From assembly GCA_028695135.1 (NCBI GenBank), contig JAQVJM010000006.1, forward strand, positions 1-35,721: 35,721 bases of DNA, read 5' to 3'. Position numbers and translations under genes: made by a program. The notes under the pieces are model-generated. The model saw nothing but the letters and a program-made list of their open reading frames with translations, searched no databases and was not told where the DNA came from. The stretch comes from Candidatus Moraniibacteriota bacterium. GTDB lineage: Bacteria > Patescibacteriota > Minisyncoccia > Moranbacterales > UBA9337. The stretch's first letter is position 1. Every line of letters starts with the position of its first letter. Shown here piece by piece: positions 13,909 through 18,086 of this stretch.

Positions 13909-14187
13909 ATGGATAATATGCAAATTTGTCCTCAGGTTTGCGTGGAACAGATAAAAGTATCCTTTACTGTCATAGGATTTGTATTTGTCTTTTTTTCTTT
14001 TTTGACAATTTATTTATTGAAGAACAAATTGACTAGAAAAGCACTAATTTTCCTAGTTGCGGCTTCAACAATATTATTTATATTATTATTAAATTTTAAA
14101 TATGATGCATGCGCCAGCGGTTGTTCTTCTAGCGGTCTTAGCTTGGGAGAAATTAAACCTGTCCCATCATGGTTTATAAATCATTAA
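13909..14187 (+). CDS. Small Cys-containing membrane protein, hypothetical
   Basis: 92 aa with two hydrophobic helices, N-terminal CPQVC and C-terminal CASGC. Starts 1 nt after porA stop. Confidence 0.65.
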   Translation: MDNMQICPQVCVEQIKVSFTVIGFVFVFFSFLTIYLLKNKLTRKALIFLVAASTILFILLLNFKYDACASGCSSSGLSLGEIKPVPSWFINH

Positions 14188-14228
14188 TTTTAAGGATAAT
14201 TCTTATTAATATCTTTAATAAAAATAAA

Positions 14229-15149
14229 ATGAATAAAAAATTGACTGAAAAATTTTATCCGGGACACGCGACCTGCGCAGGATGCGGAATTCCGGCGATC
14301 GTGAGGCACGTCTTGGACGAAGCGGATTGTCCCGTGGTCGTGATAAACGCCACGGGTTGCCTTGAGGTGACTTCGACGCTTTATCCTTATAGCGCTTGGA
14401 AAGTTCCCTATATCCACAACGCTTTTGAAAACGCGGCGGCTACTGCGGCGGGAGTGGAAACCGCTTACCGGGCGCTCAAAAAAAAGGGAAAAATAAAAGA
14501 TAAGATGAAGTTCGTGGTGTTTGCAGGAGACGGAGGGACTTTTGATATCGGCCTGCAAGCTCTCTCCGGAATGCTTGAGCGCGGACACGATGTCCTTTAT
14601 GTGGCTTACGACAATGAAGGATATATGAATACGGGCGGACAACGCTCGAGCGCCACTCCCGTGGGAGCGGATATGGAAACCACTCCGGCGGGAAAGAAGT
14701 CCTCGGGAAACAAGCTTCCCAGAAAAGACATGATGGAGATAGTCAAAAGCCATCACATCAAATATCTGGCCCAGGCCAATGTCGCCTATATCGAAGATCT
14801 GAGGAAAAAGGCCAGAAAGGCGCTGGAAACGGAAGGACCGTCCTTCCTTCTGGTTCTACAGCCCTGCACCAATGTTTGGAAATTTCCGACTTCCGATTAT
14901 GTAAAAATCGGAAAACTTGCGACTGAGACCAATTACTGGCCTCTTTACGAGATCGAAGACGGAAGATATATTTTGAATCTAAAAATTGAAAAACCGAAAA
15001 AGATTGAAGAATATCTAAAGACGCAAAAAAGGTTCGGACATCTTTTGAGTCCCAAGAACAAAGAGCTGGTGAAAAATATCCAGGAAAATATAAACAGGGA
15101 ATGGGAAGGGTTGATTGAAAGGGAAAATGGTGGGATAGTAGAGCAGTAA
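14229..15149 (+). CDS. porB: 2-oxoacid:ferredoxin oxidoreductase beta subunit (TPP-binding)
   Basis: GHATCAGCGIPAIVRHV, GDGGTFDIGLQALSGMLERGHDVLYVAYDNEGYMNTGGQRSSATP. ATG at 14229 preferred over the ORF-track start at 14169, which overlaps the upstream gene. Confidence 0.96.
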   Translation: MNKKLTEKFYPGHATCAGCGIPAIVRHVLDEADCPVVVINATGCLEVTSTLYPYSAWKVPYIHNAFENAAATAAGVETAYRALKKKGKIKDKMKFVVFAGDGGTFDIGLQALSGMLERGHDVLYVAYDNEGYMNTGGQRSSATPVGADMETTPAGKKSSGNKLPRKDMMEIVKSHHIKYLAQANVAYIEDLRKKARKALETEGPSFLLVLQPCTNVWKFPTSDYVKIGKLATETNYWPLYEIEDGRYILNLKIEKPKKIEEYLKTQKRFGHLLSPKNKELVKNIQENINREWEGLIERENGGIVEQ

Positions 15150-15201
15150 GGCGGTAAAACTGCAATGCCATGTCGGCGATGCTTATTTTTTAAATTTTTT
15201 T

Positions 15202-15543
15202 ATGAAAATAGTAAGAGATAAAATTTCAGTCGAAGAGCTCAAGGAAATGTCGGAAAGGATGTTCGGCAATCTGGTCAAAGCGGTCGTAGATGTTAAGAAG
15301 GAAATTATGGCCGTGGACGCTGAACTGCATGCCGACCAGGAAGCTTTTCTTTTAGAAGAGGGATCCGAGCAAAAAGATTTGTGGGGAATAAACTTGTATC
15401 CGGAAATGAAAGGCGATGATTTTATCGAATTTGATTCGATGATAAATCTGCGTCCGTCGCAGGATAACAGGAGCCGAGGCGTAGATGATTCCGAACTGCA
15501 GAAAAGGATAATTGAAATAGTCTATAAATTAGTGGAAAGATAA
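15202..15543 (+). CDS. DUF5674 family protein
   Basis: MKIVRDKISVEELKEMSERMFGNLVKAVVDVKKEIMAVDAELHADQEAFLLEEGSEQKDLWGINLYPE...EFDSMINLRPSQDNRSR pattern. Confidence 0.8.
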   Translation: MKIVRDKISVEELKEMSERMFGNLVKAVVDVKKEIMAVDAELHADQEAFLLEEGSEQKDLWGINLYPEMKGDDFIEFDSMINLRPSQDNRSRGVDDSELQKRIIEIVYKLVER

Positions 15544-15548
15544 TTTTT

Positions 15549-15890
15549 ATGGAAGAGATCCAGCACAAAAATTTAGCCGGAGGAGAATGGCTCAAGCTTT
15601 CTTTTTTCGAGCAGATGGCCAATGTCGGAAGCGAGGTAGAAAGATCGATTATCTGGAAGGATAAGAATAATAGAGAATATAGCCGAATAGCATTTGAAAG
15701 AGCGCTGGAGCTTTTGGATCTGACGATTGCCGATCCCAAGAATAAAAAACGTCTCAAAGAGCTTCTGCGCGTGCGCGAATGTCTGGCCGACCATTTCGTC
15801 TTTGAAAATGAGTATGCTTCAACAGACAAAAACTGGCAAAATTATTTTTTCGTTTTCAACTGGGCGGCGAGGACAAGGAATAAAATGTAA
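15549..15890 (+). CDS. Hypothetical protein (short helical protein)
   Basis: 113-aa ORF immediately downstream of the DUF5674 gene. Confidence 0.65.
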   Translation: MEEIQHKNLAGGEWLKLSFFEQMANVGSEVERSIIWKDKNNREYSRIAFERALELLDLTIADPKNKKRLKELLRVRECLADHFVFENEYASTDKNWQNYFFVFNWAARTRNKM

Positions 15891-15927
15891 AATCGGAGTC
15901 AAATTTAAATTTTCCAGTTTTAACGCT

Positions 15928-15963
15928 TGAGCCATGAGCGAGATTCGAAATCGCGGCCTACGA
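15928..15963 (-). pseudogene. tRNA 3'-half-like segment (minus strand) without a recognisable 5' acceptor half
   Basis: Reverse complement TTCGT-AGGCC-GCGAT-TTCGAAT-CTCGC-TCATGGC-TCA has V-loop, T-arm and acceptor in the same spacing as the tRNA at 16338..16369. No GCCATGA 5' acceptor strand was found nearby. Confidence 0.5.
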
Positions 15964-15993
15964 ATGGAGTTTATCCGCTTGCCTCGGCGAGCG
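15964..15993 (-). repeat. 30-nt palindrome-containing repeat, inverted copy of 16304..16333
   Basis: Minus strand CGCTCGCCGAGGCAAGCGGATAAACTCCAT is identical over 30 nt to plus-strand 16304..16333. Confidence 0.85.
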
Positions 15994-16040
15994 GAAATGC
16001 TTTACCCCGCCAGCCCTGAGACTATAATCGGACTTGCTAT

Positions 16041-16074
16041 CAATTTGTCAAAATTTTAATTTTGCGACAAATTG
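16041..16074. other. Strong hairpin in the tRNA locus
   Basis: CAATTTGTC...GACAAATTG 9-bp stem with inner AAAATT-TT-AATTTT. Confidence 0.55.
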
Positions 16075-16200
16075 GAATCTGCCTCTGGCGGAAACCCTAT
16101 TTTTTCGTCTAGACTAATTTTTATTTTTATGCATAATTAAATAGAGCTGAGCGAATCAGCCACCTTAGCTCAGTTGGCAGACCTTCCCGCCATTGCCTAA

Positions 16201-16273
16201 GCCCACGTAGCTCAGTTGGTAGAGCGACGCACTCGTAACGCGTAGGTCATCGGTTCAATCCCGGTCGTGGGCT
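16201..16273 (+). tRNA. tRNA-Thr (anticodon CGT), nested inside the outer interrupted tRNA
   Basis: GCCCACG-TA-GCTC-AGTTGGTA-GAGC-G-ACGCA-CTCGTAA-CGCGT-AGGTC-ATCGG-TTCAATC-CCGGT-CGTGGGC-T. Full cloverleaf; one A/C mismatch at the base of the anticodon loop. Confidence 0.92.
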
Positions 16274-16303
16274 CAGGCTTAGGCAGGCGGGGCGACGCAC
16301 TTA

Positions 16304-16333
16304 CGCTCGCCGAGGCAAGCGGATAAACTCCAT
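16304..16333 (+). repeat. 30-nt palindrome-containing repeat at the anticodon-loop region of the outer tRNA
   Basis: CGCT-c-GCC-ga-GGC-a-AGCG hairpin followed by GATAAACTCCAT. Exact inverted copy at 15964..15993. Confidence 0.85.
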
Positions 16334-16378
16334 GCGTAGGTCATCGGTTCAATTCCGATAGGTGGCTCATAATTTTTT

Positions 16379-17305
16379 ATGAACAACAGAGATAAAAAAA
16401 ATATAAATTTGGAGGATTTCCTGAAAAATATAAATTCGGGAAAAAACAAGAGAATAAACCCTTTTATAACCGTAGTGCTGCTGATTTTCGTCTTTTTAAA
16501 TATTCTCGCCGACACGGGCGGGTTTAGCCTAATAATTAATCATCTAAAATCTATGGGAACACTCACGACGCTGATTATCATTGCGGCAGTGATCATATTG
16601 ATCTCCATCCGCCAGATCAATCAGTACCAAAAAGGTGTAAAATTCATGTTGGGAAAATATGTCGGTATCATGGAGCCTGGCTGGAGGCTGGTTTTTCCGA
16701 TAATCCAGGGCTATCAAAAAGTCGATATGCGCATCAAGGCGGTTGATGTGCCGGATCAGGAAGCTATCACTAAGGACAACATTTCCGTAACGGTCAACGC
16801 GGTGATATATTACAAGGTGGCCGATGCGGAAAAAGCGATAATCGAAGTGGAGGATTTTTATTATGCCGTATCCCAGCTGGCGCAGACTACGATGCGAAAC
16901 GTAGTCGGAGAGGTCGATCTGGACGAGCTTCTCTCCAATCGGGACGCGATTGCGGAGAAAATCAGAAAAATTGTTGATGAAGCGACGGACGCTTGGGGAG
17001 TGAAAGTCAACTCGGTGGAGCTCAAAGACGTCACTCTTCCCGAGGAGATGAAAAGGGTTATCGGAAAGCAGGCTGAGGCGGAAAGGGAGAAAAGAGCGGT
17101 TATAATAAAATCGGAAGGAGAGGTCGTGGCAGCCGGCAATATTTCCAAAGCGGCTGAAATGCTTTCTGCCAAGCCGGGGTCGCTTCATCTGAGAACGCTT
17201 CACACCCTTAATGATCTTTCATCTGATCAGTCCAATACGGTAATCTTTGCCGTACCCATAGAAGTTCTGAGGGCTCTTGAAAAAATAGGCGGTCAGGGGA
17301 AATAA
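16379..17305 (+). CDS. SPFH/Band 7 (stomatin/slipin-like) membrane protein
   Basis: IRQINQYQKGVKFMLGKYVGIMEPGWRLVFPIIQGYQKVDMRIKAVDVPDQEAITKDNISVTVNAVIYYKVADAEKAII. Confidence 0.94.
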   Translation: MNNRDKKNINLEDFLKNINSGKNKRINPFITVVLLIFVFLNILADTGGFSLIINHLKSMGTLTTLIIIAAVIILISIRQINQYQKGVKFMLGKYVGIMEPGWRLVFPIIQGYQKVDMRIKAVDVPDQEAITKDNISVTVNAVIYYKVADAEKAIIEVEDFYYAVSQLAQTTMRNVVGEVDLDELLSNRDAIAEKIRKIVDEATDAWGVKVNSVELKDVTLPEEMKRVIGKQAEAEREKRAVIIKSEGEVVAAGNISKAAEMLSAKPGSLHLRTLHTLNDLSSDQSNTVIFAVPIEVLRALEKIGGQGK

Positions 17306-17311
17306 CAAGAA

Positions 17312-17333
17312 CGTACTTACGTCCGTAATTACG
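17312..17333. other. Two-step hairpin downstream of the SPFH gene
   Basis: CGTA-C-TTACG-TC-CGTAA-T-TACG. Confidence 0.45.
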
Positions 17334-17340
17334 AAAAAAT

Positions 17341-17505
17341 ATGAAAAAAGAAATAAGGAAATTAAGCAAAACATCGACCCATAGCTACTCAATCGTTATC
17401 CCGAAAGCGATAATCGATAGATATGGATGGCGGGAAAAACAAAAACTTGTCATTGAAGACAAGGGCAGGGGAAAATTGGAAGTAAGAGATTGGCGGAAGC
17501 GTTAA
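17341..17505 (+). CDS. AbrB/MazE/SpoVT-like small DNA-binding protein (54 aa; absent from the supplied ORF track)
   Basis: MKKEIRKLSKTSTHSYSIVIPKAIIDRYGWREKQKLVIEDKGRGKLEVRDWRKR*. SpoVT/AbrB-like SxxIxIPKxxxxxxGW...L pattern. Confidence 0.75.
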   Translation: MKKEIRKLSKTSTHSYSIVIPKAIIDRYGWREKQKLVIEDKGRGKLEVRDWRKR

Positions 17506-17511
17506 GGCGTT

Positions 17512-17567
17512 ATAACAATTAAACAATATAACAATTAAACAATATAACAATTAAACAATATAACAAT
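17512..17567. repeat. 16-bp tandem repeat (3.5 copies) abutting the rubrerythrin start codon
   Basis: (ATAACAATTAAACAAT)x3 + ATAACAAT, then ATG at 17568. Confidence 0.95.
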
Positions 17568-18086
17568 ATGCGTACATTTATCTGTGAAATTTGCGGGGAC
17601 GCTTATCTGGGAACGGAGGCGCCTTCAAAATGTCCTTTCTGCGGGGCTGATCATTCTTATATAAAGCCGGGAGCCGAAGCCAATCCTGTTTTTAAAAGAG
17701 CGGGAGAAATAGGCGAAAAATCCAAGGAAAATTTGATGCTGACCTTAGATTTGGAAATGAAAGCCAGCGCCATCTATCTTTGTATGGCGGGAAAAACCGA
17801 AAAATTTGAAATTAAGCAGATGTATAAGCGTCTGGCCAAGGTTGAGCTGGAGCACGCGACGGTCGTGACGAAGCTTCTGGGGATAGAGATGCCGAAAAGC
17901 TCGGTCGAAGAGTGCGGAGACGAAGATCTGGAAAATTTCGAAAAAACCGTGGAGCTGGAAGAGCACGCCACGTCTCTTTACGGAAGATTCGCTGCGGAAT
18001 CCGAAGAAGAAAAAGTGAAAACTTTTTTCGTGGCTCTTATGAAGGTCGAAGCGGAGCATATCGAGCTTATAAGGAATTATATGTAA
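17568..18086 (+). CDS. Rubrerythrin with N-terminal rubredoxin-like domain ('reverse' rubrerythrin)
   Basis: N-terminal CEICGDAY...CPFCGA, then a ferritin-like domain with LDLEMKAS, ELEHATVV, EEHATSLYGRF, VEAEHIELI. Confidence 0.93.
   Translation: MRTFICEICGDAYLGTEAPSKCPFCGADHSYIKPGAEANPVFKRAGEIGEKSKENLMLTLDLEMKASAIYLCMAGKTEKFEIKQMYKRLAKVELEHATVVTKLLGIEMPKSSVEECGDEDLENFEKTVELEEHATSLYGRFAAESEEEKVKTFFVALMKVEAEHIELIRNYM

Follow-up and report, generated by a model that had tools for sequence, protein, structure and literature searches.

Palindrome-borne tRNA cassettes nested within tRNA genes: a tRNA-Thr locus in a Moraniibacteriota genome and similar loci in other Patescibacteria

What is a complete tRNA-Thr gene doing inside another tRNA-Thr gene? 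The question is raised by the window, a 35,721-nt stretch of DNA from a Candidatus Moraniibacteriota genome (G000, a draft in 37 contigs), in which a 110-nt block carrying an intact tRNA-Thr(CGT) interrupts the D-loop of a second, outer tRNA-Thr gene, with GGCAGA on one side of the insertion point and GC on the other. The original prediction had left four options for this arrangement, namely an intron-like element, a mobile palindromic element that captured a tRNA, a decaying tandem duplication and an assembly chimera. The parts of the locus, together with its conserved neighbors, are as follows.

14169..15149, + strand: TPP-enzyme C-terminal domain protein, conserved neighbor of the Thr(CGT) locus
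15931..16015, - strand: further tRNA-like 3' half, older, bearing the hairpin of the outer gene, GGCTGGCGGGG standing before the 3' half
16159..16181, + strand: outer (resident) tRNA-Thr, 5' part, comprising acceptor strand GCCACCT and the D-arm to GGCAGA
16182..16291, + strand: cassette insert, 110 nt, composed of palindrome half, tRNA and palindrome half
16182..16200, + strand: cassette left arm, 19 nt, CCTTCCCGCCATTGCCTAA, which is the left half of the ~42-nt palindrome CCTGCCCGCCATAGCCTGAGCCGAAGGCGATGGCAGGCGGG
16201..16273, + strand: inner intact tRNA-Thr(CGT), called by ARAGORN and Rfam
16274..16291, + strand: cassette right arm, 18 nt, CAGGCTTAGGCAGGCGGG
16292..16369, + strand: outer tRNA-Thr, 3' part, comprising D-stem GC, anticodon stem ACGCA/TGCGT, variable loop, T-arm, acceptor strand AGGTGGC and TCA
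16300..16332, + strand: outer anticodon loop, 33 nt, with the REP-like hairpin CGCTCGCC-GA-GGCAAGCG followed by GATAAACTCC
17568..18086, + strand: rubrerythrin-like protein, conserved neighbor on the other side of the Thr(CGT) locus

Direct reading bears out most of the predicted anatomy. The tRNA portion of the outer gene consists of 16159-16181 plus 16292-16366; its acceptor strands GCCACCT (16159-16165) and AGGTGGC (16360-16366) pair at 7/7 positions, and removal of 16182-16291 restores the D-stem GCTC/GAGC. The inner gene is a full tRNA-Thr(CGT), called by ARAGORN and scoring 64.4 bits (E=4e-13) in Rfam, and it is bracketed by the expected inverted arms (left, 16186-16203; right, 16276-16291), which are predicted to pair with each other and to stack on the inner acceptor stem. 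Outer and inner genes also have in common the anticodon 5' strand, the variable loop and the T-arm, as two repeats (D1 and D2). Detection of tRNAs with and without the insert had been suggested: with it, both programs report the inner tRNA and overlook what is left of the outer gene, and without it ARAGORN does not call the joined outer flanks either. Two features had been overlooked, a second insert in the outer gene, namely the hairpin in its 33-nt anticodon loop, and a 59-nt inverted copy (15957-16015, 88%) of 16282-16340, which is part of the outer 3' half.

Taking out the 110 nt does not revive the dead outer gene, because its anticodon stem ACGCA/TGCGT encloses 33 nt rather than 7, with the hairpin in the place of the anticodon and CGT gone. 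When the joined flanks are searched with the intron option, the sole ARAGORN call is Val(TAC), an implausible one. Apart from the inner gene, none of the 39 tRNA genes found in the window genome is a Thr(CGT); Thr(GGT) and Thr(TGT) are represented by intact genes elsewhere in that genome. The idea that the outer gene was a tRNA-Thr(TGT) fails on two counts, the presence of that intact Thr(TGT) gene and the match of the outer body to the Thr(CGT) of the family.

Where the outer gene came from can be read from its relatives. With the anticodon loop masked, and measured against 31 Thr(CGT) genes from the order, the outer body is nearest to that of G003, a genome of the same family (64/66 positions, 0.970), followed by two other same-family genomes, G008 (0.909) and G009 (0.879), and by same-family G005 at 0.864, level with two others. 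Moreover, the outer 5' part (16159-16181) matches the intact Thr(CGT) of G003 letter for letter. In G003, as in many other genomes of the order, a Thr(CGT) gene is flanked by the same pair, a TPP-enzyme gene and a rubrerythrin gene. Since its intact gene sits in the same neighborhood, G003 is a good model of the empty site. It belongs to a different genus and its tRNA is oriented oppositely relative to the TPP-enzyme gene; a pair of genomes differing by the cassette alone was not found. By sequence and gene neighborhood, the outer gene is the lineage's original tRNA-Thr(CGT). As for the inner gene, its nearest match (97%) is in G014, from another family, which makes it a divergent and probably foreign tRNA, an assignment based on 73 positions. 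A decaying tandem duplication is only a partial description of the locus: decay of the outer copy is borne out, but the inner gene, divergent and probably foreign, occupies a fixed point of a palindrome. Separately, tRNA-Thr(CGT) points one way relative to the TPP-enzyme gene in some genomes of the order and the opposite way in others (14169-18086 and the orthologous loci L057-L085), possibly via inversion between repeats such as 15957-16015 and 16282-16340.

The arrangement is not confined to the window. Nested copies in other families of the order appeared already in the first search of relatives, and 16 cassette loci were eventually found through arm or junction patterns, a number that is neither an unbiased count nor a frequency. 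In all the sequence read, arms stand on both sides of a complete tRNA for 16 of 210 distinct tRNAs. The insert measures 108-114 nt at 15 of the 16 loci and 120 nt at the remaining one, and the cargo comprises Thr(CGT), Thr(TGT), Thr(GGT), Arg(CCT), Arg(CCG) and Pro(TGG); in an Ala(CGC)-in-Ala case, the arms are longer. When the insert is removed computationally, four of the 16 emptied sites are called as tRNAs (Thr(CGT), Thr(TGT) twice and Pro(TGG)), each with the anticodon of its inner tRNA, and the other 12 yield no tRNA call. In the Arg-CCT and Arg-CCG targets, the outer anticodon is legible by eye and again matches the cargo. The two outer acceptor halves pair at 7/7 positions at 6/11 loci, against 7% of cross-pairs (permutation p=0.006); the remaining loci are mostly decayed, as expected for pseudogenes of different ages. 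The junction GGYAGA^CYTGCCYGCC occurs at 44 sites in 37 of the 392 genomes of the class (reversed-pattern control, 0); 31 of these sites come after a tRNA 5' half, and 11 of the 44 have a tRNA cassette, with a complete tRNA beginning 19-20 nt in. At one locus of a Falkowbacteria genome (L173) the nesting is double: one tRNA lies inside a second, which itself lies inside a third, and each insertion is at GGTAGA^CCTGCCCGCC. Another locus (L230, in G338) presents a different kind of multiplicity, a single outer tRNA-Thr whose D-loop and anticodon loop each hold a tRNA-bearing insert with Thr(TGT) as cargo.

We consider it likely that, at this locus, the insertion of a palindrome-borne tRNA broke a resident tRNA gene and replaced its function, after which the outer gene decayed. 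The inserted element, a ~42-nt palindrome that carries an intact, foreign tRNA-Thr(CGT) at its apex and measures 110 nt in total, would have entered the resident D-loop between AGA and GC, and the same insertion would have broken the resident gene and supplied a working copy. Because the working copy would have come with the insertion itself, the host would keep one tRNA-Thr(CGT) and the outer copy would be free to decay and could be struck again. Insertions costing the host a needed tRNA would be lost, and those bringing the same tRNA would survive; this is probably why the anticodons of cargo and target match wherever they are legible, since with any mismatch the host would be a tRNA short. 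We infer that the palindrome and its tRNA enter together, as a single unit, and that the cassette is mobilized by a single-strand (HUH-type) mechanism or by one driven by an endonuclease. The 110-nt insert contains no integrase gene, only the tRNA, and no enzyme tied to the cassette was found, the window genome offering a single partial match to a Y1 transposase (Y1_Tnp, 26 bits, in a 96-aa frame). Among the four options originally listed, the evidence, namely the recurrence of the cassette and the interspersed nature of its palindrome, singles out tRNA capture by a mobile palindromic element. A phage vehicle was considered and rejected: the exact junction is present in 48 viral contigs, in none of them beside a tRNA, and a search of viral DNA for the left arm followed by GCC revealed no tRNA among the 80 matches listed.

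The palindrome also exists without its cargo. Joined directly, the arms form the ~42-nt palindrome, e.g., CCTGCCCGCCATAGCCTGAGCCGAAGGCGATGGCAGGCGGG, with the tRNA standing at its apex, and this bare form is an interspersed element with 20 copies in 16 of 244 genomes (no match for the reversed pattern), its exact form being rare per genome. Some copies lie far from tRNAs, others in the D-loop of a tRNA-Thr at the same AGA^GC point. The DNA flanking bare palindromes tends to self-pair (mean -5.9 kcal/mol, vs -3.3 for exchanged flanks, p=0.0006), and the palindrome therefore favors hairpin tips. A tRNA loop is a hairpin tip of the kind favored, and the tRNA cargo itself sits at the tip of the palindrome. 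The same preference is supported for the REP-like hairpin, and was not seen for a related 20-nt palindrome, CCTGCCTGCCGGCAGGCAGG, which is commoner (94 of 293 genomes). Such short hairpins and palindromes are interspersed in many genomes, with reversed-pattern controls at zero. Among the matches listed, the REP-like hairpin spans many phyla, and 8 of 80 such loci place it inside a broken tRNA-Thr beside a complete tRNA-Thr(CGT), the doubly nested L173 being one of the eight. As a high-copy repeat of the window genome, the arm was rejected, since with one mismatch allowed the right arm occurs at only four places.

These bare copies lead to the main rival of a single mobile unit, in which entry took two steps: the palindrome would first have broken the D-loop, and an intact tRNA would later have reached its tip through template switching or through recombination of one palindrome with another, so that no mobile tRNA unit would exist. 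Both the tendency toward hairpin tips and the bare palindromes at the very same point of tRNA D-loops (L487, L239, L247 and L137) speak for such a sequence of events. We nevertheless find it unlikely, as arm and insert lengths hardly vary whether the cargo is Thr, Arg or Pro, and the inner tRNA has the identity of the gene that was broken, a coincidence for which a chance second insertion would need strong selection.

A second rival, which we judge equally doubtful, treats the cassettes as cargo-only descendants of small GIY-YIG elements able to cut a tRNA gene and provide a substitute for it. At 11 junction sites there is a small ORF bearing GIY-YIG motifs, three of the GIY-YIG proteins from junction sites being confirmed by Pfam, and GIY-YIG ORFs lie between the 5' part of a broken tRNA and an intact tRNA of the same kind. 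The window locus has no GIY-YIG endonuclease ORF between its tRNA pieces, and other tRNAs of the same genome do: a small one comes directly after tRNA-Ile(GAT) and precedes a repeat of the tRNA 3' half (C14:11432-11770, L032), and another separates a tRNA-Trp 5' part, with a hairpin in its anticodon region, from an intact tRNA-Trp(CCA) (C29:20900-21320, L034). From these tRNA-adjacent genes, it seems that breakage of tRNAs with restoration occurs in this genome by other means too. However, the targets broken by the GIY-YIG insertions so far read are tRNA-Leu, Asn, Lys, Ile and Trp; no such insertion was seen with D-loop Thr cassettes, and copies of the palindrome also exist well away from any tRNA.

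Three further observations are recorded here. In the window genome, tRNA-Arg(GCG) is followed by a palindromic insert ending in TAGGCAGGCGGGG and then by the 3' half of a second tRNA-Arg-like gene (C27:47357-47580, L033). On contig C26 of the same genome (L089, 1350-1530), a tRNA-like sequence just upstream of tRNA-Leu(CAG) has a palindrome-ended insert in its T-loop (GGTTC^CCTGCTCGCC...GGCAGGCGGG^GATTCC). One repeat, ATTAGTCGCCGAGTCCGCC...GGCGGATAAACTCCGCGAGGCGAAC, is shared by several Patescibacteria lineages (L105, L120, L123, L127 and L128), with some copies near tRNAs.

Far less probable is an intron-like RNA element, in which end processing of one transcript would release the inner tRNA and rejoining of its halves would give the outer one. 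The four emptied sites that form complete tRNAs would suit it, and in the predicted fold the arms and the acceptor stem could hold the outer halves together. Yet the outer anticodon is gone at the window locus, 12 of the 16 emptied outer copies are not called as tRNAs, most outer copies at the other loci bear further damage, and no intron family of Rfam matches the region, in which the inner tRNA is the sole confident match; we regard RNA splicing of the outer tRNA as unlikely. Weakest of all, and practically negligible, is an assembly chimera of two tRNA genes, for although the genome is a draft in 37 contigs, the nested arrangement is neither chance nor such an artifact because the cassette recurs, with identical boundaries and insert length, in independent and unrelated assemblies from several families.

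If a tRNA-bearing palindrome does insert in this way, it would differ from most mobile elements, which usually avoid essential genes or merely patch them. The sole gene of the cassette is the gene that it destroys, and so a costly strike would become neutral and the element indispensable. Such replacement would explain why tRNA-Thr(CGT) diverges strongly among close relatives at one locus, would open a route for horizontal replacement of tRNA genes, and could leave, in the layers left behind, a record of tRNA turnover in reduced genomes. More tentatively, the cassettes might represent a class of selfish tRNA genes, that is, minimal mobile cassettes with a tRNA as their sole gene, spreading into resident tRNA genes of the same identity, made indispensable by replacing what they break, and leaving tRNA-in-tRNA-in-tRNA layers.

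Several known systems resemble the cassette in part. Like the REPs and REPINs mobilized by RAYTs (Y1 HUH enzymes), it belongs among short interspersed hairpins and shows no duplication of the target at its junctions, and REPs have a GGAG or GTAG tetranucleotide; in related copies, the other strand of the outer-loop hairpin likewise reads GGAG-TTTA-hairpin. In contrast, REPs are without a gene, and the cassette carries a complete tRNA at its apex (16 loci) and has a tRNA loop as target. As for a RAYT, the window genome shows the one partial Y1_Tnp match, and no full RAYT was found in it. Rickettsia palindromic elements are palindromes that invade genes, RNA genes included, and can form double hairpins. 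Mitochondrial repetitive hairpin elements are gene-invading palindromes too, again with RNA genes among their targets and double hairpins possible (PMC2800124). Unlike the cassette, both kinds of element lack a tRNA cargo and do not replace the gene that they break. Among integrative elements and homing endonuclease genes, those aimed at tRNA genes restore the target with their own sequence, as the cassette would, but they encode an integrase or endonuclease, and the 110-nt cassette encodes a tRNA only. As for tRNA introns (group I or archaeal-type), they also interrupt tRNA loops; the cassette differs from them in its D-loop position, in matching no intron family and in an outer tRNA that is usually dead. 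Three ingredients are each known separately: short palindromes that are interspersed, elements with tRNA genes as targets, and elements that repair the tRNA into which they insert. In the open-licence papers searched, no earlier description was found of nested or mobile tRNA genes of this kind, nor of a mobile unit with a tRNA as its sole gene and the same tRNA as its target. Set beside these systems, the cassette has a real chance of deserving a class of its own.
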